DNA of 64,000 bases from Aggregicoccus sp. 17bor-14 (GTDB lineage: Bacteria > Myxococcota > Myxococcia > Myxococcales > Myxococcaceae), in the NCBI RefSeq assembly GCF_009659535.1, contig NZ_VJZZ01000002.1, positions 496,001-560,000 on the forward strand. The letters are read 5' to 3'. The position numbers and the translations under genes are program-made. Shown here piece after piece: positions 52,787 to 62,094 of the stretch. The notes beneath the pieces were generated by a model that saw nothing but the letters and a program-made list of their open reading frames with translations, was not told where the DNA came from and made no database searches. Within the stretch, counting starts at the first letter, position 1, and every line of letters begins with the position of its first letter.

Positions 52787-53215
52787 CACGGCTCCGGGTG
52801 TCGAAGGAAGCGAGCACAGGCAACGCGCAGGTGCGCGAGCCGGCGCAGGTAAGCACAACGGCTTCCCGGCAAGCGCCGCTCTCCGAGCGGATGGCTCAGC
52901 GGGACCCGCGCGCCTGCAGTGACCTGTCCGAGAGACCTCCTCAGGTCGTCGGGACTCCGGGTGCGTGGTGACCCGCCCCCTGCGGGGGCTCGCGCGCACC
53001 CGTTCGTTTGCCCTCCACGCACTGTCTCGGTTTCCCCTCCCGACGCGGCTGTCGGCCCGCCCCTTTCACCCGTGGGCAGGGTCCGGCCGCACGCAGGGGC
53101 AGGGTGAATCCAGGGGGTGGACCCGAGACCCGGGGCATTTGCACCCCATTTGACACTCCAACGATAAGCGCACCTAAAATCCGCGAAAAATTTCCCTCAG
53201 CGAACGGAATATTCC
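52787..53215. other. Long upstream region of the TTG operon
   Basis: About 430 bases with no convincing gene. A GC-rich stretch with a 6-bp hairpin (GCCCCC-TGC-GGGGGC at 52975-52989) gives way at 53146 to an unusually AT-rich segment carrying the promoter at 53150-53180 and the leader of the gene at 53216. Confidence 0.6.
53150..53180 (+). promoter_or_regulatory. Sigma70-like promoter of the TTG operon
   Basis: TTGACA (53150-53155) and TAAAAT (53175-53180) with a 19-bp spacer, in an AT-rich island of an otherwise very GC-rich region. It ends 35 bases before the TTG at 53216, which supports that start. Confidence 0.6.
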
Positions 53216-56200
53216 TTGCGCGTTAAACAGAAGCTTCTGGCGGCCACCGCCGTGGCGACCGCCGCCGTTCTCCTCGTGCCTCCGTCCGTGAGTGCCTACC
53301 GGCGCTACGTGGACCAGCTGGCGCGCGCCAAGCTCCGCGACTTCCTCAAGGATCCGCAGGCGGGCGACGAGGGCTGGCGCGAGGCCGACCCGGACGCGTG
53401 GCGCGAGACGGCGCCCGGTGAGGGCGAGGCCGAGGGCGACGATGCGATGCGCCGCATGATCGCCGCCAAGACGCTGTGGGGGACGCGGACTCCCGAGGCG
53501 ATGGAGCACCTGGCGCGCGTCTCCCACCAGGAGGCGCAGCGCTGGGCGCCGCAGCTGGCGTCCCCGCTGCGCGCCGCGCCCGGCGTGGACCAGCCGGCGA
53601 TCGTGGGTGGCGCGAACGCGGCCAGCCTGTCGTGGGTGAACCTCGGTCCGACCAACGCGAGCTTCGAGTACAACGGCAGCCTCTACAGCGAGGTGGACTC
53701 GGGCCGCGTCAACGCCATCCTCGTGAGCCCCGCCGACACCCGCATCGCCTACCTGGGCACCAGCGGCGGCGGCGTATGGAAGACCTTCGAGATGGGCAAC
53801 GCGAAGCCCACCTGGTACCCGGTGGCCGAGACGCTGGGCAACCTGGCCATCGGGGCGCTGGACCTGGACCCGCAGGCGCCGGACACGCTCTACGCGGGCC
53901 TGGGCGACTTCGTGGACACGCCGGGCGGCCAGGTGGTGAAGAGCACCGACGGCGCGGCCACCTGGGGCGCGCCGGTGAGCCTCTCGGGGCAGTACCCCGC
54001 CGGCTCGGGCGGCCTCTCGGTGAAGGCGCTGCGCATCCGCGCGCTGCGCGTGGACCCGACCAACTCCAACGTCGTGCTGGTGGGTACGGACGTGGGGCTC
54101 TTCCGCTCCACGGACGCGGGCGCGAGCTACAGCCTGGTGGACCTGCCCAACCAGGGCACGACGCAGAAGCCCGAGAGCGTGTGGAGCATCGTGTACACGG
54201 GCGCCGTCAACGGCGTGAGCCGCTGGGCCCTCAGCGGCGTCTACGCGTGCGATGCCGCCAGCCGGCCTCCGGATGCAGGAGTTGGCCAGGCCTCGGGCGC
54301 CACGGGCTGCACCGCGGGCAACCCGGGCGACCTCTGGACGAGCAGCGACGCGGGCGCGACCTGGAGCTCGCGCAAGGCCGCGGGCGCCATCCCCACCACG
54401 GCGGTGGGCCGGCTCACGCTCGGCGCGGGCACTCCGTCGGCCACTGCGGTGACGGTGGTGTACGCGCAGCTGGGCAACCAGGACGAGTACAACGCGCCCG
54501 CGGGCGCCGGCTACTGGCGCTCCACCGACTCGGGCGCGACCTGGGTCGCCATCAACGGCACGCTGGCGAACGCGACCAACTCCGTGGGCGGCGCGCGTGA
54601 CTGCGGCACCGTCAACGTGAACGCCGGGCAGGCCTGGTACAACTCGGCGGTGGCGGTGGATCCCGCCAACGACAACAACGTGCTCATCGGCGGCATGCTC
54701 TGCGGCCTGCGCACCAGCAACGGCCTCTCCGCGACGCCCACCTGGGAGAACGTCTCGCACTGGCTGCCCAGCGGCGGCGGCGGCAACGTCACCGGCGGCA
54801 CCCTGGACTACGTGCACGCGGACTGGCACGCGGCGCTCATCGTGCGCACCGCCACGGGCTACCTGGCGATGGGCGGCAGCGACGGCGGTCTCTTCGTCTC
54901 GAGCAACCTCTTCAACGCGACGCCGCCCCAGGTGGTCTGGAACGGGATGAACCAGGGCATCGTCACGCACCTGGGCTACTCGATGGCCTCGGGTGACCCG
55001 GCCACGGGCAACTCCTACCTCGCGTACACCGGCCTGCAGGACAACGGCACCCGCTTCCGCGATCCGGCCGCAGGCGCCTCCTCCACCACCTTCAACCAGG
55101 TCATCGGCGGCGACGGCTTCGGCGCGGCCGCGAGCAAGGACCCGTCGAGCAGCGCCACCGTCTACTGGGCGAGTGTGAACGGCAGCCGCCGCACCTGCGT
55201 GCCCACGTCGGCCAACAGCTTCTGCAACGCCGGCACCGCGTGGACGACCAAGAACGCGACGCCGCTGTCCACCACCACCTGCCCCGGCGAGGGCCAGCCC
55301 TTCATCATCCGCTACGCGGTGGCGCAGGCCAGCCCCAGCGTCAACACGGTGCTCACCGCGACCAACGGCGCCGTCCACCGCGTGAGCGGCACGGGGGCGT
55401 GGGCCGCCATCAGCCCCTGCCTCACCGGCGCCACCCGCAACCTCGCGGCCTCGCCCACCATCGACGGCCTGTACGGCGTGGCGATGAGCGGCGGCCGCTT
55501 CTACGTCACCAGCAACTGCACGGGCACCACCACGGCCTGCACCTGGACCCAGAGCAGCGTGCTGGGCTTCGACGCCAACGGCGACGGCACCCTCGGGGCC
55601 GACGAGAAGGTCAGCTACACGTCCATGGTCTCCTTCCCGCCCGCCACGCCGGCGGGCAAGACGGCGGGTGACGTGTACGTGGCGGCGAGCGCGGCCCCGC
55701 TCGCGGGAGACGGCAAGAGCCTGGTGTCGGACGCGCTCGGCCACCTCTTCATCACCACCAACCGCGGCGCGAGCTGGGCCCCGCTGCACGGCAACGGGAC
55801 GGGCTTCGACCTGCCCAACGTGGGCATCGGCTCGGTGCGCTACGACCCGGGCGACACCGCCAACAACACCCTCTACGTGGGCACCGAGCTCGGCGTGTAC
55901 CGCAGCATCGACGGCGGCCAGACCTGGCGCCGCTTCGGCAACGGCCTGCCCATGGCGAGCGTGACGGACATGTTCATCAGCCGCACCGGCTCGATGCTGC
56001 GCGTGTCCACCTTCGGCCGCGGCCTGTGGGAGATCTACCCCTCGGCCACCGCCGAGAAGGGCGTGAACGGCACCGGCGACTGGAACCGCGACCAGCAGCT
56101 GGACTTCATCGACCTCGCGGCGATGGCGAGCCGGCTCGGCACCTCGCCCGCCACCACCGAGGCCCCCCTCTACGACTGGAACGTCGACGTGACCGGCACC

Positions 56201-56263
56201 GTGAGCGGCACGGACGACGCGGACCTCACCCAGCTGCTCAACAAGTTCGGCGGTCGCCCGTGA
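53216..56263 (+). CDS. Secreted beta-propeller protein with dockerin-like C-terminus
   Basis: A 1015-residue protein, apparently starting with TTG. Signal peptide (1-27: KQKLLAATAVATAAV...SVSA). The middle (about 130-930) has BNR/sortilin-like beta-propeller blades: repeated TSSDAGATW, RSTDSGATW, STDGAATW and RSIDGGQTW Asp-box-like motifs. The C-terminal 65 residues (about 950-1015) hold a dockerin-like pair: GDWNRDQQLDFIDLAAM (calcium loop D-x-N-x-D...D) and YDWNVDVTGTVSGTDDADL, the second with a two-residue insertion. No catalytic residues of sialidases are clear. It overlaps the second gene's upstream GTG by 4 bases. Probably a surface-bound binding protein. Confidence 0.85.
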   Translation: MRVKQKLLAATAVATAAVLLVPPSVSAYRRYVDQLARAKLRDFLKDPQAGDEGWREADPDAWRETAPGEGEAEGDDAMRRMIAAKTLWGTRTPEAMEHLARVSHQEAQRWAPQLASPLRAAPGVDQPAIVGGANAASLSWVNLGPTNASFEYNGSLYSEVDSGRVNAILVSPADTRIAYLGTSGGGVWKTFEMGNAKPTWYPVAETLGNLAIGALDLDPQAPDTLYAGLGDFVDTPGGQVVKSTDGAATWGAPVSLSGQYPAGSGGLSVKALRIRALRVDPTNSNVVLVGTDVGLFRSTDAGASYSLVDLPNQGTTQKPESVWSIVYTGAVNGVSRWALSGVYACDAASRPPDAGVGQASGATGCTAGNPGDLWTSSDAGATWSSRKAAGAIPTTAVGRLTLGAGTPSATAVTVVYAQLGNQDEYNAPAGAGYWRSTDSGATWVAINGTLANATNSVGGARDCGTVNVNAGQAWYNSAVAVDPANDNNVLIGGMLCGLRTSNGLSATPTWENVSHWLPSGGGGNVTGGTLDYVHADWHAALIVRTATGYLAMGGSDGGLFVSSNLFNATPPQVVWNGMNQGIVTHLGYSMASGDPATGNSYLAYTGLQDNGTRFRDPAAGASSTTFNQVIGGDGFGAAASKDPSSSATVYWASVNGSRRTCVPTSANSFCNAGTAWTTKNATPLSTTTCPGEGQPFIIRYAVAQASPSVNTVLTATNGAVHRVSGTGAWAAISPCLTGATRNLAASPTIDGLYGVAMSGGRFYVTSNCTGTTTACTWTQSSVLGFDANGDGTLGADEKVSYTSMVSFPPATPAGKTAGDVYVAASAAPLAGDGKSLVSDALGHLFITTNRGASWAPLHGNGTGFDLPNVGIGSVRYDPGDTANNTLYVGTELGVYRSIDGGQTWRRFGNGLPMASVTDMFISRTGSMLRVSTFGRGLWEIYPSATAEKGVNGTGDWNRDQQLDFIDLAAMASRLGTSPATTEAPLYDWNVDVTGTVSGTDDADLTQLLNKFGGRP

Positions 56264-56292
56264 ACCGCGCCCCTCGTCAGGAGACGTCCATC

Positions 56293-59200
56293 TTGAGCCT
56301 CAAGCACCTCGCGCTGGCCCTGCTCGCGGCGGCCAGCTTCGCCTCCGGCTGCAAGGGCGCCAAGCCCCACAACGACCTGCCCGACGGTGGCTCCCCGCCG
56401 GCGCAGGTGGCCCGCAAGCTCGCCTTCACGGCGCAGCCCACGGCCGCCCAGGTGGGCGCGCACCTCGCCCCGTCCGTGCAGGTCACGGTGCAGGACGCGG
56501 ACGGGAACACCGTCACGGCGGCCAACACCTCCATCACCCTCGCCCTGGGGCAGAACGCCGCGGGCGCGAGCCTCTCGGGCCTCAAGACCGTGGCGGCGGT
56601 GAACGGCGTGGCCACCTTCACCGAGCTCGCGCTGGACAAGGCCGGCGAGGGCTACACCCTGGTCGCCAGCGCCAGCGGCCTCACCGGCGCCACCAGCGCG
56701 GCCTTCTCCATCAGCGCCGCGCCGCAGAGCACGCCCACGCTGGCCTTCTCGGCGGCGCCGGACGAGGCCGACGCGGACGGCACGCTGCTGCCCGAGGTGA
56801 CGGTCGCCGTGAAGGACGCGCAGGGCCATACCCTGACCGGCGCCCTCTCGGTGTCGCTCGCCCTGGGCGCGAACCCCTCGGGCGCCACCCTCCAGGGCAC
56901 GCTCGAGACGGTGTCGGTGAACGGCGTGGCCACCTTCCAGGGGCTGAGCATCACGCAGGTGGGCGAGGGCTACACCCTGGTCGCCTCCGCGCCCGGCGCG
57001 GTGAGCGTCACCAGCGCGCCCTTCCGCGTGAAGCCCGGCGCGGCCCGCTCGCTCGCCTTCGTCACCCAGCCCTCCTCCACCGTGGCCGGCAGCGCCCTCG
57101 CTCCCGCGGTGCAGGTGGCGGTGCGCGACGTGCACGGCAACACCGTCACCGCCTCCACTGCCAGCGTCACGCTGGCGCTCTCGGCGGGCAGCCTCGCGGG
57201 CACCCGCACGGTGGCGGCCGTCAACGGCGTGGCCACCTTCCCGGACCTCTCCGTGGCCCAGGCCGGCACCAGCTATACCCTCGCCGCCAGCTCGGGCTCG
57301 CTCACGGGCGCCACCAGCGCCGCCTTCGCGGTCAGCCCCGGCGCTCCCGCCGCGCTCGCCTTCCGCACGCAGCCCGCGGGCGGCCCGGCCGGCGCCACGC
57401 TCGGCGCGGTGGAGGTGGAGGCGCTCGATGCATCCGGCAACCTCGTCCCGGGCTTCGCGGGCGAGGTCTCGCTCTCGCTGGGCGAGGCGCCCTCGGGCGC
57501 GGTCCTCTCCGGCACCGCGAGCGCCACCGCGGCGGGCGGCGTGGCCCGCTTCGCGGACCTCTCGCTCGCCCGCGCCGCGGCGCGCTACACGCTGGTCGCC
57601 CGGAGCACGGGCCTCGTGGACGTGACGAGCGCCGCCTTCGCGGTGACCCCCGGCGCGGCGGCCCGCCTCGCCTTCGGCGTGCAGCCCTCCGGCGGCGCGG
57701 CCGGCCAGGCCTTCAGCCCCGCCGTGCAGGTGTGGGTGGAGGACGCGCTGGGCAACCTCACCGACTCCAGCGCGAGCGTGACGCTGGCGCTCACGGGCGG
57801 CGACGCCGCGGCGCAGCTCTCCGGCGCGCTGAGCACGACCGCGTCCTCCGGTGTGGCCACCTTCGCGGGCCTCTCGGTGGACAAGAGCGGCATGGGCTAC
57901 CAGCTGGTCGCCTCGAGCACCGGCCTCCCGGGCCTCTCGAGCGCCACCTTCGCCATCGTCTCGGGCGTGGCCTCCCGCCTCGCCTTCCTCACCCAGCCCA
58001 CGGACACCGTGGCGGGCGCGGGCCTCGCCGCCGATGTGGTGGTGCAGGACGCGCTCGGCAACCGCGTGCTGGACTCCACCGCGAGCATCACGGTCAGCCT
58101 CTCGGGCGGCAGCGCCGGCGCGAGCCTCCAGGGCACGCGCACCGCCTCCGCCGTGGACGGCGTGGCCCACTTCTCCGCGCTGTCCATCGAGACCGCGGGC
58201 ACGGGCTACCAGCTCACCGCCAGCGCCGCGGGCCACACGGGCGCCACCTCCAGCGCCTTCGCGGTGACTCCGGCCGCGGCCCACGCGCTCGCCTTCACGG
58301 CGCAGCCGGCCAGCACCACCGCGGGCGTGGCCCTGGGGGAGGTGCAGGTGACGGTGCAGGACGCCTTCGGCAACGTCGCCACGGGCGCCTCCTCCTCCAT
58401 CACCCTTGCGCTCGGCGGCGGCAGCAGCGGCGCCACCCTCGCGGGCAGCAGCACGGTGGCGGCCGTCAACGGCGTGGCCACCTTCACGGGCCTCTCGGTG
58501 GCCCGGACCGGCACGGGCTACGTGCTGACGGCCTCCTCCGCGGGCCTCACCGACGCCACCAGCAGCACCTTCGACGTGGCGGTGGCGGCGGCCTCGCGCC
58601 TCGCCTTCGCCGTCGAGCCGCCGGAGAGCGCGACCGCGGCCGAGCCGCTCGCGCCCTCCGTGCAGGTGCGCATCGAGGACGCCTTCGGCAACGCCGTGGC
58701 GGACGCCACCGCGAACATCACGCTCGCGCTGAGCGGCGGTGACTCCAGCGCCGTCCTCTCGGGCACCCGCAGCGTGAGCGCGGTGGCCGGTGTGGCCACC
58801 TTCCCCGGCCTCTCCGTGGACCTCGCGCAGAGCGGCTACCGCCTCGAGGCCACGTCGGCGGGGCTCACCGCGGCGACCTCGCGCGCCTTCACCATCGTGC
58901 CGGGCAGCGCCGCGCGCCTCGCCTTCCGCGTGCAGCCCACCGGCGCCACCGCCGGCGCGACGCTCGCGGACGTGGAGGTCGCGGTCCTGGACGCGCACGG
59001 CAACACCGTGCCGGACAGCAGCACGAGCGTAGCGCTCGCCCTGGCGCCCAGCGCGCCCGTCTCCGGCCTGCTCACCGAGCTCACCGTGGGCGGCATCGCG
59101 CGCTTCTCCGGGCTCTCGGTGGACCGCGCGGGCAGCTACACGCTGACCGCGAGCGCCACGGACCTCACCGCGGCGACCTCCGCGTCCTTCGACGTGGCGC

Positions 59201-60951
59201 CCGCGGCCGCGGCGCAGCTCGCCTTCACCACCCAGCCCGCGAGCACCCCCGCGGGCCAGGCCTTCACGGTGGAGGTGGCGGTGCAGGACCGCTTCGGCAA
59301 CCGCGTCACCAGCGGCGCTCCCGAGCTCACGCTGGCGCTCCACGGCGGCAGCGCCGGGGCCAGCCTCTCCGGCACCTCCACGGCGAGCGCCGCGAGCGGC
59401 CTCGCGCGCTTCACCGGCCTGTCCGTGCAGCAGGCGGGGACGGGCTACACGCTCAGCGCCTCCAGCGCGGGCGTGGCGGACGCCACCAGCGTCAGCTTCG
59501 ACGTCGCCGCGGGCAGCGCGGCGCGCCTGGTCTTCAGCACCCCGCCCCAGGACGGCACGGCCGCCGCGGCGCTGGCCGCGGTGGTGGTCACGGCGCAGGA
59601 CGGCTACGGCAACACCGCGGCCGACTTCGGCGGCAGCGTGACGGTGGCGCTCGGGAGCAATCCGGGCGTGGCCACCCTCGGCGGCACCACCACGGTGACG
59701 GCGAGCGCGGGCGTGGCCACCTTCTCCACCCTCACGCTGGACAGGGCGGGCAGCGGCTACACCCTCGCGGCGAGCGCCACGGCGCTGAGCGGCGCGACGA
59801 GCCCTGCCTTCACCATCGCCGCGGGCGCGCCCAGCCGGCTCGCCTTCAGCGTGCAGCCTCCCGCGAGCGGCGCGGCGGGCGTGAGCCTGAGCCCGGCCGT
59901 GGAGGTCTCCCTCCTCGATGCGCAGGGCAACCTCACCCCCTCCACCGCGAGCGTGACGCTGGCGCTCGGCGCGAACCCCGGCAGCACCACGCTGGGCGGC
60001 ACCACCACCGTGGCGGCCGTGGGCGGCGTGGCCCGCTTCACCTCGCTGCAGGTGACGCGCGCTGCGAGCGGCTACACCCTGAGCGCCTCCTCCTCGGGGC
60101 TCAGCGGTGCCACCAGCAGCGCCTTCTCCATCACGGCCGGGGCGGCGAGCCGGCTCACGTTCGTGACCCAGCCCAGCAACATCGCCACCGGCGCCGTCAT
60201 GACGCCGGCGGTGCAGGTGGCGGTGGAGGATGCGTTCGGAAACCGCACCGCGAGCGCGCTCGCCATCAGCCTGGGGCTCGCCGACGGCTCCAGCGCCGTG
60301 CTCTCCGGCACGCTCACCCGCACGAGCACGGCCGGCCTGGCCAGCTTCGGGGACCTCTCCATGGAGCAGGTGGGCACGGGCTTCCGGCTGACGGCCTCCG
60401 CCACGGGCCTCGGCGCTGGCACCAGCACGACCTTCGACGTCACCGCCGCCCTCGGCTTCGCCTTCACCGAGCCGACGAGCGGGAAGATCCGCCTCATGCG
60501 CAACCCCGCCTCCACCAGCCGCAACATCGTGCTGGACCTGGTCACCCTGGAGGACCTCACCGGCTACTCGGTGGGCATGAACCTGCCGCTCGACACCACG
60601 CGCGCGCAGGCCGGCAGCCCGCTGATGACGAACGGCAGCGCACTGCCCGCGGGCAGCGCCCCCACGGCCGCCATGGCGCTCATTCCCACCAGCGGGCCCC
60701 TGCAGGGCGTGCTGGTGAGCGGCCAGAGCCAGAAGGCCAGCGGCGCGGGGGCGGTCCTCACGGACACCCTCATCCCCGCCGGCTCGGTGCTCTACACCCT
60801 GCGCCTCAGCATGCCCACGGGCGCCACCGAGGGTGTGGTGTTCGACGGGGCGTCGCCGGGTGCGAAGTTCCGCGCCCTGCTGCGCAACAAGCTCGGTGAG
60901 GACGTCGTGGCGGGCAACGACTTCGCCATCGGCAAGCTCGAGCTGCGCTAG
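56293..60951 (+). CDS. Giant Ig-repeat lipoprotein with possible cohesin-like C-terminus
   Basis: A 1552-residue lipoprotein (lipobox FASGC). Residues 43-1385 are 13 Ig-like repeats of about 103 residues, each of the form L-A-F-x-x-Q-P, AGxxLxPxVxVxVxDxxGN, GxATFxGLSV and GxGYTLxAS. The last 165 residues differ: NIVLDLVTLEDLTGYSVGMNLP and SVLYTLRLSMPTG resemble a cohesin-like beta-sandwich; this is inference. TTG at 56293 is chosen because AGGAGA lies 8 bases upstream; the overlapping GTG at 56260 lacks a ribosome site. Repeats match the N-terminal part of the 14711-17173 lipoprotein. Confidence 0.85.
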   Translation: MSLKHLALALLAAASFASGCKGAKPHNDLPDGGSPPAQVARKLAFTAQPTAAQVGAHLAPSVQVTVQDADGNTVTAANTSITLALGQNAAGASLSGLKTVAAVNGVATFTELALDKAGEGYTLVASASGLTGATSAAFSISAAPQSTPTLAFSAAPDEADADGTLLPEVTVAVKDAQGHTLTGALSVSLALGANPSGATLQGTLETVSVNGVATFQGLSITQVGEGYTLVASAPGAVSVTSAPFRVKPGAARSLAFVTQPSSTVAGSALAPAVQVAVRDVHGNTVTASTASVTLALSAGSLAGTRTVAAVNGVATFPDLSVAQAGTSYTLAASSGSLTGATSAAFAVSPGAPAALAFRTQPAGGPAGATLGAVEVEALDASGNLVPGFAGEVSLSLGEAPSGAVLSGTASATAAGGVARFADLSLARAAARYTLVARSTGLVDVTSAAFAVTPGAAARLAFGVQPSGGAAGQAFSPAVQVWVEDALGNLTDSSASVTLALTGGDAAAQLSGALSTTASSGVATFAGLSVDKSGMGYQLVASSTGLPGLSSATFAIVSGVASRLAFLTQPTDTVAGAGLAADVVVQDALGNRVLDSTASITVSLSGGSAGASLQGTRTASAVDGVAHFSALSIETAGTGYQLTASAAGHTGATSSAFAVTPAAAHALAFTAQPASTTAGVALGEVQVTVQDAFGNVATGASSSITLALGGGSSGATLAGSSTVAAVNGVATFTGLSVARTGTGYVLTASSAGLTDATSSTFDVAVAAASRLAFAVEPPESATAAEPLAPSVQVRIEDAFGNAVADATANITLALSGGDSSAVLSGTRSVSAVAGVATFPGLSVDLAQSGYRLEATSAGLTAATSRAFTIVPGSAARLAFRVQPTGATAGATLADVEVAVLDAHGNTVPDSSTSVALALAPSAPVSGLLTELTVGGIARFSGLSVDRAGSYTLTASATDLTAATSASFDVAPAAAAQLAFTTQPASTPAGQAFTVEVAVQDRFGNRVTSGAPELTLALHGGSAGASLSGTSTASAASGLARFTGLSVQQAGTGYTLSASSAGVADATSVSFDVAAGSAARLVFSTPPQDGTAAAALAAVVVTAQDGYGNTAADFGGSVTVALGSNPGVATLGGTTTVTASAGVATFSTLTLDRAGSGYTLAASATALSGATSPAFTIAAGAPSRLAFSVQPPASGAAGVSLSPAVEVSLLDAQGNLTPSTASVTLALGANPGSTTLGGTTTVAAVGGVARFTSLQVTRAASGYTLSASSSGLSGATSSAFSITAGAASRLTFVTQPSNIATGAVMTPAVQVAVEDAFGNRTASALAISLGLADGSSAVLSGTLTRTSTAGLASFGDLSMEQVGTGFRLTASATGLGAGTSTTFDVTAALGFAFTEPTSGKIRLMRNPASTSRNIVLDLVTLEDLTGYSVGMNLPLDTTRAQAGSPLMTNGSALPAGSAPTAAMALIPTSGPLQGVLVSGQSQKASGAGAVLTDTLIPAGSVLYTLRLSMPTGATEGVVFDGASPGAKFRALLRNKLGEDVVAGNDFAIGKLELR

Positions 60952-61030: not shown

Positions 61031-61564
61031 TCAGGGTGCGGAGAGAGGGCTGCCGGAGATGGCCTCGAGCAGCGCCTCTGCCGAGAAGGCGCCGTCGTGG
61101 CGGTGCCCGTTGATGAAGAAGGTGGGGGTGCCGTTCACGCCGCTGCGCACGCCGGTCATGAAGTCGCGCCTTATCTTGTCGTGGAAGCGGTGCTCCTGGA
61201 CGCTGCTGGCGAACGCGTCCACGTCCAGGTCCAGCATGCCCGCGTACTCGATGAGCGCCTCCAGCGAGAGGTCGTCCTGGTTCTCGTAGAGGAGCTGGTG
61301 CATCTCCCAGAAGCGGCCCTCCGCGCCGGCGGCCTCCGCGGCCTCCGCGGCCTGCTCCGCGTACGGGTGCGCCTGCGTGAGCGGGAAGTGGCGGAAGACG
61401 AGGCAGAGCCGGCTGCCGAGCGCCTGCCGCAACCGTTCGACCTCGGCCTGGGCCCGGCCGCAGAAGGGGCACTGGTAGTCGCCGTACTCCAGGAGCATCA
61501 CTGGCGCACTGGGGGAGCCGCTGACGTGGTCCTCCGGGCTCATGGCCACCGTGCGCGCATTCAT
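61031..61564 (-). CDS. DsbA-like thioredoxin-fold oxidoreductase
   Basis: A 177-residue protein without a signal peptide. Redox motif C32-P-F-C35 in GDYQCPFC, cis-proline in NGTPTFFING, and the DsbA helical insert (about 60-130). Relatives include the DSBA-like/FrnE and bacterial glutaredoxin-like enzymes; a cytoplasmic role is likely because no signal is seen. Its start ATG overlaps the stop of the upstream peroxiredoxin gene (ATGA), suggesting it may be the electron donor for that enzyme. Confidence 0.9.
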   Translation of the reverse strand: MNARTVAMSPEDHVSGSPSAPVMLLEYGDYQCPFCGRAQAEVERLRQALGSRLCLVFRHFPLTQAHPYAEQAAEAAEAAGAEGRFWEMHQLLYENQDDLSLEALIEYAGMLDLDVDAFASSVQEHRFHDKIRRDFMTGVRSGVNGTPTFFINGHRHDGAFSAEALLEAISGSPLSAP

Positions 61565-62094
61565 GACGGCACCCGCGCTTCCTGCCCGGGCGCCGGGCTC
61601 GCGCGCCCGCCGGACTGGGCGTTCAGCCGCTCGAGCGCATCCAGCACCCCGTCCGCGCCAGGGTTCACGCCGACCGGGGAGCGGTAGCTCCAGAACACCT
61701 TCCCCTCGCCGTCCAGCACGTACAGCACCCGGTCGGAGACGCCTTCCTCCTCGCGGTAGGCACGGAATGCACGCGAGACCTTCCCTTTGGGCTCGAAGTC
61801 CGCGAGCAGCGGCATGTGCAGCTTCCGGTCGCGCGCGAAGGCGGCGTGGCACCACGCACCGTCCACCGAGATGGCGAGCACGTTCGCTCCCAGCTGCTTC
61901 AGCTCGGGCAGCAGCTCGTTGAACACCGCGAGCTCGTCGCTGCACACCGGGCTCCAGTCCGCCGGGTAGAAGATGAGGACCACGGAGTTGCCCGAGCAGT
62001 CCTCGAGCGTGAGCCGCTGGTCGGGCGTGACGTTGAGGGTGAAGGAGGGGGCCTGCGTGCCGGCAGCCAGCGGTGGAGCCTGGGATGTAGCCAT
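61561..62094 (-). CDS. Peroxiredoxin coupled to the DsbA-like gene
   Basis: A 177-residue AhpC/TSA-type peroxiredoxin. Peroxidatic C51 in PADWSPVCSDE (PxxxSxxC variant), and C82 (GAWCHAAFARD) as possible resolving residue, 31 apart, close to the 33-residue spacing in the peroxiredoxin at 13175 (C44-C77). C33 is extra. Start at 62094 has GAGGTG seven bases upstream. Stop overlaps the DsbA-like ATG by 4 bases. Confidence 0.92.
   Translation of the reverse strand: MATSQAPPLAAGTQAPSFTLNVTPDQRLTLEDCSGNSVVLIFYPADWSPVCSDELAVFNELLPELKQLGANVLAISVDGAWCHAAFARDRKLHMPLLADFEPKGKVSRAFRAYREEEGVSDRVLYVLDGEGKVFWSYRSPVGVNPGADGVLDALERLNAQSGGRASPAPGQEARVPS

Follow-up and report, generated by a model that had tools for sequence, protein, structure and literature searches.

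Cohesin–dockerin pairs are known mainly from cellulosomes, together with scattered non-cellulosomal proteins. In the cellulosomal pairs (types I, II and III; Clostridium thermocellum CipA, Acetivibrio and Ruminococcus), an enzyme carries a C-terminal dockerin with F-hand calcium loops, its partner has the cohesin fold, and a cell-surface protein provides the anchor; a cellulosome comprises a scaffoldin with several cohesins and many enzymes. Cohesin and dockerin modules are also used outside cellulose degradation, as in the Clostridium perfringens glycosidases, Archaeoglobus and ANME archaea (PMC9012536). Further, the surface protein TMEM132/Coherin resembles the lipoprotein described below in joining a cohesin domain to Ig domains of the bacterial type; the TMEM132 proteins differ in being eukaryotic transmembrane adhesins, and dockerin homologues are not detectable in vertebrates (PMC6030884). 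For myxobacterial or Myxococcus dockerins, no paper on a system of the kind described below was found among the titles and abstracts searched.

The window analyzed here, a 64,000-nucleotide stretch of Aggregicoccus sp. 17bor-14 (contig NZ_VJZZ01000002.1, positions 496,001 to 560,000), carries two adjacent genes that probably encode a private, one-to-one dockerin/cohesin anchoring pair with exchangeable cargo and variable stalk length. Similar to the cellulosomal pairs, a C-terminal dockerin with F-hand calcium loops is combined with a predicted cohesin fold and a putative cell-surface anchoring protein. However, each lipoprotein has one cohesin-like domain and no multi-cohesin scaffoldin occurs, the single private partner is encoded next door, a Gram-negative lipoprotein replaces the SLH or sortase anchor, the cargo is not cellulases, and the domain sequence lies beyond the Pfam Cohesin family; with three one-to-one pairs in its own genome, the arrangement is not a cellulosome. 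The non-cellulosomal modules share the use outside cellulose degradation, but differ from the strict two-gene unit found here, in which the lipoprotein has a long Ig stalk and the cargo belongs to two or more unrelated classes.

Gene 1 (53216–56263, + strand), an ORF of 1015 aa with a TTG start, encodes a predicted secreted protein with an Asp-box (GH74-like) propeller and a C-terminal dockerin. The protein begins with the signal-peptide-like MRVKQKLLAATAVATAAVLLVPPSVSA (MRVKQK...SVSA; 53216–53296, + strand), as read from the sequence. Its beta-propeller region (53633–56050, + strand) is supported by Pfam matches to BNR (E 3e-4) and Sortilin-Vps10 (E 4e-6), by PDB profile matches to GH74 and by fold matches from a low-confidence model, and six Asp-box-like motifs were counted in the protein. 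Gene 2 (56293–60951, + strand; 1552 aa) follows the gene 1 stop after a gap of 29 nt, and a Shine-Dalgarno-like AGGAG (56279–56283, + strand) lies 9 nt 5′ of its TTG codon; the TTG codons at 53216 and 56293 are the most plausible starts of the two genes. The encoded protein is a lipoprotein with a lipobox-like FASGC (Cys20) in its signal (56293–56352, + strand), in place of which paralogues have LAGC and LAAC. A stalk of exactly 13 Ig-like (Big_1-type) repeats follows (56416–60441, + strand), supported by Pfam Big_1 matches and a repeat period of 100–107 residues, and the extreme C-terminus is formed by the distinct cohesin-like domain (residues 1385–1552; 60445–60948, + strand). These gene models agree with the initial annotation, which had read a TTG-started gene for Asp-box-like blades ending in a dockerin-like calcium-loop pair, and a TTG-started lipoprotein gene with 13 Ig-like repeats and a separate last domain. 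Its AT-rich promoter, TTGACA-N19-TAAAAT (53150–53180, + strand), fared less well: the hexamers, at 53150 and 53175, are 19 nt apart, which is outside the usual range, and a simple consensus scan was negative, so that it is at best a weak candidate. An Rfam search of the window returned no match. A DsbA-like thioredoxin-fold gene (window 61031–61600, − strand) faces the gene pair and is probably unrelated.

The last 67 residues of the gene 1 protein (949–1015; 56060–56260, + strand) have the layout of a type I dockerin, namely about 60–70 residues with duplicated F-hand calcium loops. The first loop, DWNRDQQLDFID (56078–56113, + strand), is canonical, while the second, DWNVDVTGTVSGTDDAD (56174–56224, + strand), is irregular and stretched. 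Pfam Dockerin_1 (PF00404) matched this segment with an E value of 9e-4, its 19.9 bits staying below the 22.9-bit cut-off, and the same model individually matched 25 of the 37 relatives, at best with 1e-5. When a family profile built from the 37 relatives was compared with PDB, known dockerins led the matches (2jnk and 2y3n, then 5lxv and 6kg9), the best of which include the dockerins of C. perfringens hyaluronidase, B. cellulosolvens, R. flavefaciens and C. acetobutylicum; EF-hand proteins with similar or weaker scores were interspersed among them. The structure model of the full-length protein was of such low confidence (pLDDT 49.5) that the fold of the dockerin could not be assessed from it.

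The initial annotation had proposed that the last domain of the lipoprotein is cohesin-like, and structure prediction supports this. The best AlphaFold2 (AF2) model, computed from eight homologues, had a mean pLDDT of 85.1 and a pTM of 0.82, and was the one confident model among five (pLDDT 85, 60, 59, 52 and 40). Foldseek against PDB gave cohesin entries as the best 28 matches (best E 5e-5). Consistently, the 48 best entries by VIA-align were all cohesins, with Z scores from 10.8 to 8.0 over 117–145 aligned residues, and the first non-cohesin reached a Z of 7.4. A wrong model would hardly agree with a single family in this way, and the C-terminal domain of gene 2 is predicted to adopt the cohesin fold, a nine-stranded jelly-roll beta-sandwich. 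The C. perfringens cohesins 2vo8, 2jh2 and 2w1n appear, with the hyaluronidase dockerin 2jnk, among the structural and profile matches of the window pair. In contrast, neither the window domain nor any of its 38 relatives matched Pfam Cohesin (PF00963), which had no match in the Aggregicoccus sp. 17bor-14 genome either, and searches of Pfam, NCBIfam and PDB with sequences and profiles of the window family were negative. Of the HMM checks that the initial annotation had suggested, the dockerin model therefore gave a match below its cut-off and the cohesin model none. As the domain is undetected by Pfam and by PDB sequence profiles, it is called cohesin-like here, not a PF00963 member. The failure of the window-family profiles to reach cohesins, together with a CBM2 structure at rank 29 of the Foldseek matches, would suit a beta-sandwich that is related to cohesins but has a glycan or a different protein as its ligand, the dockerin-like end binding something else and the two genes being neighbours through a common substrate. 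We consider this rather unlikely, as all the top VIA-align matches are cohesins and as the gene linkage and the second cargo class described below point to the anchoring pair.

A dockerin is also carried by the GH74 xyloglucanase of C. thermocellum, and the gene 1 propeller resembles this enzyme family. GH74 headed both the fold and the profile matches: the 24 best PDB fold matches of the propeller model were all GH74, the tandem seven-bladed Asp-box propeller family, although on a model of pLDDT 49.5, and the propeller profile matched PDB entries including GH74 6p2o at 4e-9. However, the aspartate of the GH74 TDIGG motif, which we take to be catalytic from general knowledge and from the title of the PoGH74 D60A entry, aligned in 6p2o with Ser183 of the gene 1 protein, so that one of the two catalytic aspartates of GH74 is missing in the alignment. 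At the TD.GG aspartate position, Ser, Ala or Thr was found in all the propeller relatives in which the motif could be located. This replacement makes ordinary GH74 catalysis by the propeller doubtful; judged from these residues, the propeller may bind xyloglucan-like polymers rather than cleave them, or may cleave them through other residues, and its function is assigned here only by such inference.

The gene pair was then surveyed in 147 genomes of the class and one further record (L059). The own genome contains three propeller-dockerin/cohesin-lipoprotein pairs of identical gene order, and the paralogous pairs are 49–51% identical to the window in the cohesin-like domain and 43–61% in the dockerin; a fourth propeller paralogue, on contig C3, has neither a dockerin nor a cohesin-like neighbour. 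About 40 further loci carry the pair, and with three copies in one genome the association is not due to chance. All 41 testable dockerin-bearing propellers, that is, those with enough flanking sequence (two more propeller/dockerin genes are cut off by contig ends), adjoin a gene ending in a cohesin-like domain, while none of the 17 dockerin-less propellers has such a neighbour within about 6 kb (Fisher p 5e-15). The linkage count and this p value overstate independence owing to relatedness, as the dockerin-less propellers come mostly from one clade and 12 of the 17 belong to a single orthologous group. The dockerin-less orthologues L104–L115 end just past the last blade (WEL.P), and all lack a lipoprotein neighbour. 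The dockerin is thus absent exactly where the neighbour is absent, which argues against separate ligands for the two domains. Adjacency was kept even where the order was reversed to lipoprotein then propeller (L072, 1894–6839), and a tandem pair of propeller/dockerin genes was found upstream of a single cohesin-like lipoprotein (L093, 2239–6142). On the cohesin side there were three exceptions: L083 is located where its contig begins, and no dockerin partner was detected for L091 or for an incomplete second copy in L085. A search of 195 genomes of the phylum gave no instance of the propeller/lipoprotein system beyond the order.

Distances between dockerins and cohesin-like domains were correlated across the pairs (mirror-tree r 0.74), but no better than those between propellers and cohesin-like domains, and the partial r fell to −0.05 after the propeller distance was removed, indicating no co-evolution signal beyond co-inheritance. 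Covariation of alignment columns, with the propeller as control, was enriched 1.5-fold in the top 1% and not at all in the top 0.05%.

A second class of gene pairs, with an unrelated cargo, came to light through weak matches of the cohesin-like profile. At 22 loci (L096, L097, L098, L099, L127, L128, L137, L141 and L144–L157), a gene for an M4 (thermolysin-family) protease with a C-terminal dockerin is followed, in every case adjacently, by one for an Ig-stalk cohesin-like lipoprotein. The upstream protein combines FTP, M4 and M4_C with Ig-like (Big_7) domains and ends in a canonical dockerin with a regular second loop, and the FTP propeptide, Peptidase_M4 and M4_C were confirmed by Pfam for four members. 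HExxH and GxxNExxSD (GLNExxSD) motifs were present in 21 of the 22 proteases, the remaining one being cut off by a contig start. The Ig repeats of the downstream lipoprotein are of another kind, and its C-terminal domain is a homologue of the window domain: in profile–profile comparisons of the window and protease classes, the cohesin-like families matched with 97.6% probability (E 4e-12) and the dockerin families with 97.9% (E 6e-13). The protease-class dockerin matched the B. cellulosolvens dockerin 2y3n at 1.7e-11 and passed the PF00404 cut-off in genome scans, for example with 32.8 bits in genome G044. The sole near-significant PDB match of the protease-class cohesin-like domain was a cohesin (10uy, E 0.013); together with the recurrence of the pair with an unrelated protease cargo, this again speaks against a glycan-binding sandwich and for a dockerin–cohesin partnership. 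The initial annotation's small two-component scaffold is supported for the propeller and its lipoprotein, but was drawn too narrowly, as the protease cargo was missed. Four more cohesin-like lipoproteins are encoded beside M4-type proteases on two small contigs of genome G092 (L142, 3089–9733; L143, 1921–6441); in these, short proline-rich linkers replace the Ig stalks, and in three of the four cases the M4-like protein encoded upstream has a visible dockerin-like end of divergent sequence.

Pfam dockerins above cut-off occur in 37 of the 147 genomes of the class, vs. Pfam cohesins in only two. This gap between many dockerins and almost no recognizable cohesins in a Gram-negative predatory lineage is partly explained by a partner that is divergent in sequence. 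Just two Pfam Cohesin matches passed the cut-off, namely G001:C97:1348–1686 and G010:C92:1495–1857. In addition, dockerin proteins of about 335–430 and about 830 aa were observed in other genomes of the class (L123, L130, L132, L135, L138 and L139), some in facing or nearby pairs; the profiles found no cohesin-like neighbour for them.

The stalks vary from nothing to very long, as shown by Ig-less linkers vs. long Ig-repeat lipoproteins: the lipoprotein ORFs range from 216 to 2161 aa, the stalk being nil or nearly nil in L059, L141 and L142 and longest in L068. These lengths bear on two further explanations. The EF-hand-like segment could be a signal for export or folding that depends on calcium; the lipoprotein would then not be a permanent anchor, but would escort the segment or act as its export receptor. 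Like a sorting signal, the dockerin is the end of the protein in essentially all propeller relatives, and the dockerin-less orthologues are presumably secreted in another way; the cohesin-like domain too is C-terminal in nearly all pairs. We regard this explanation as very improbable, since long and variable Ig stalks suit reach, not escort, and known dockerins bind cohesins. Alternatively, the pair could bind on the inner face of the outer membrane and retain the propeller in the periplasm, as the orientation of the lipoprotein is not readable from its sequence. This is quite improbable: the longest stalks, at about 2000 residues, would hardly seem to fit into a periplasm, and M4 proteases of the kind found in the second class are secreted enzymes.

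Taken together, the dockerin/cohesin pairing proposed by the initial annotation is largely supported: the adjacency that it asked to be surveyed was kept, and neither of the outcomes that it had named as contrary, a non-cohesin fold or separated genes lacking the C-terminal domains, was encountered. In the anchoring mechanism that we favour, the propeller protein would be exported with its C-terminal dockerin attached, and the lipid of the gene 2 lipoprotein would anchor that protein in the outer membrane, so that the cohesin-like domain is presented outward at the tip of the 13-repeat Ig stalk. Direct, calcium-dependent binding of the dockerin to this domain would then fasten the exoprotein to the cell at a distance set by the stalk, where it may take part in the degradation of polymers or prey. 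The relatives with M4 metalloprotease cargo and with stalks of none to many repeats suggest a cargo-exchangeable display module, and as the unrelated cargo shares the plug-and-stalk arrangement, myxobacteria seem to have here a means of keeping exoproteins on their cells that has attracted little notice. For binding-specificity work, compact one-to-one pairs, three in a genome, would be usable, and the system may serve as a natural module for surface display, the reach of which varies. It is an evenly balanced proposal that myxobacteria possess a general, so far unnamed surface docking system, in which private pairs, adjustable outer-membrane lipoprotein stalks and exchangeable cargo (GH74-like propeller, M4 protease and possibly more) would keep lytic exoproteins on the predator for contact-dependent degradation. 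The pairs suggest, in concrete and testable form, a way in which hydrolytic proteins could be retained on the myxobacterial surface during contact-dependent feeding.
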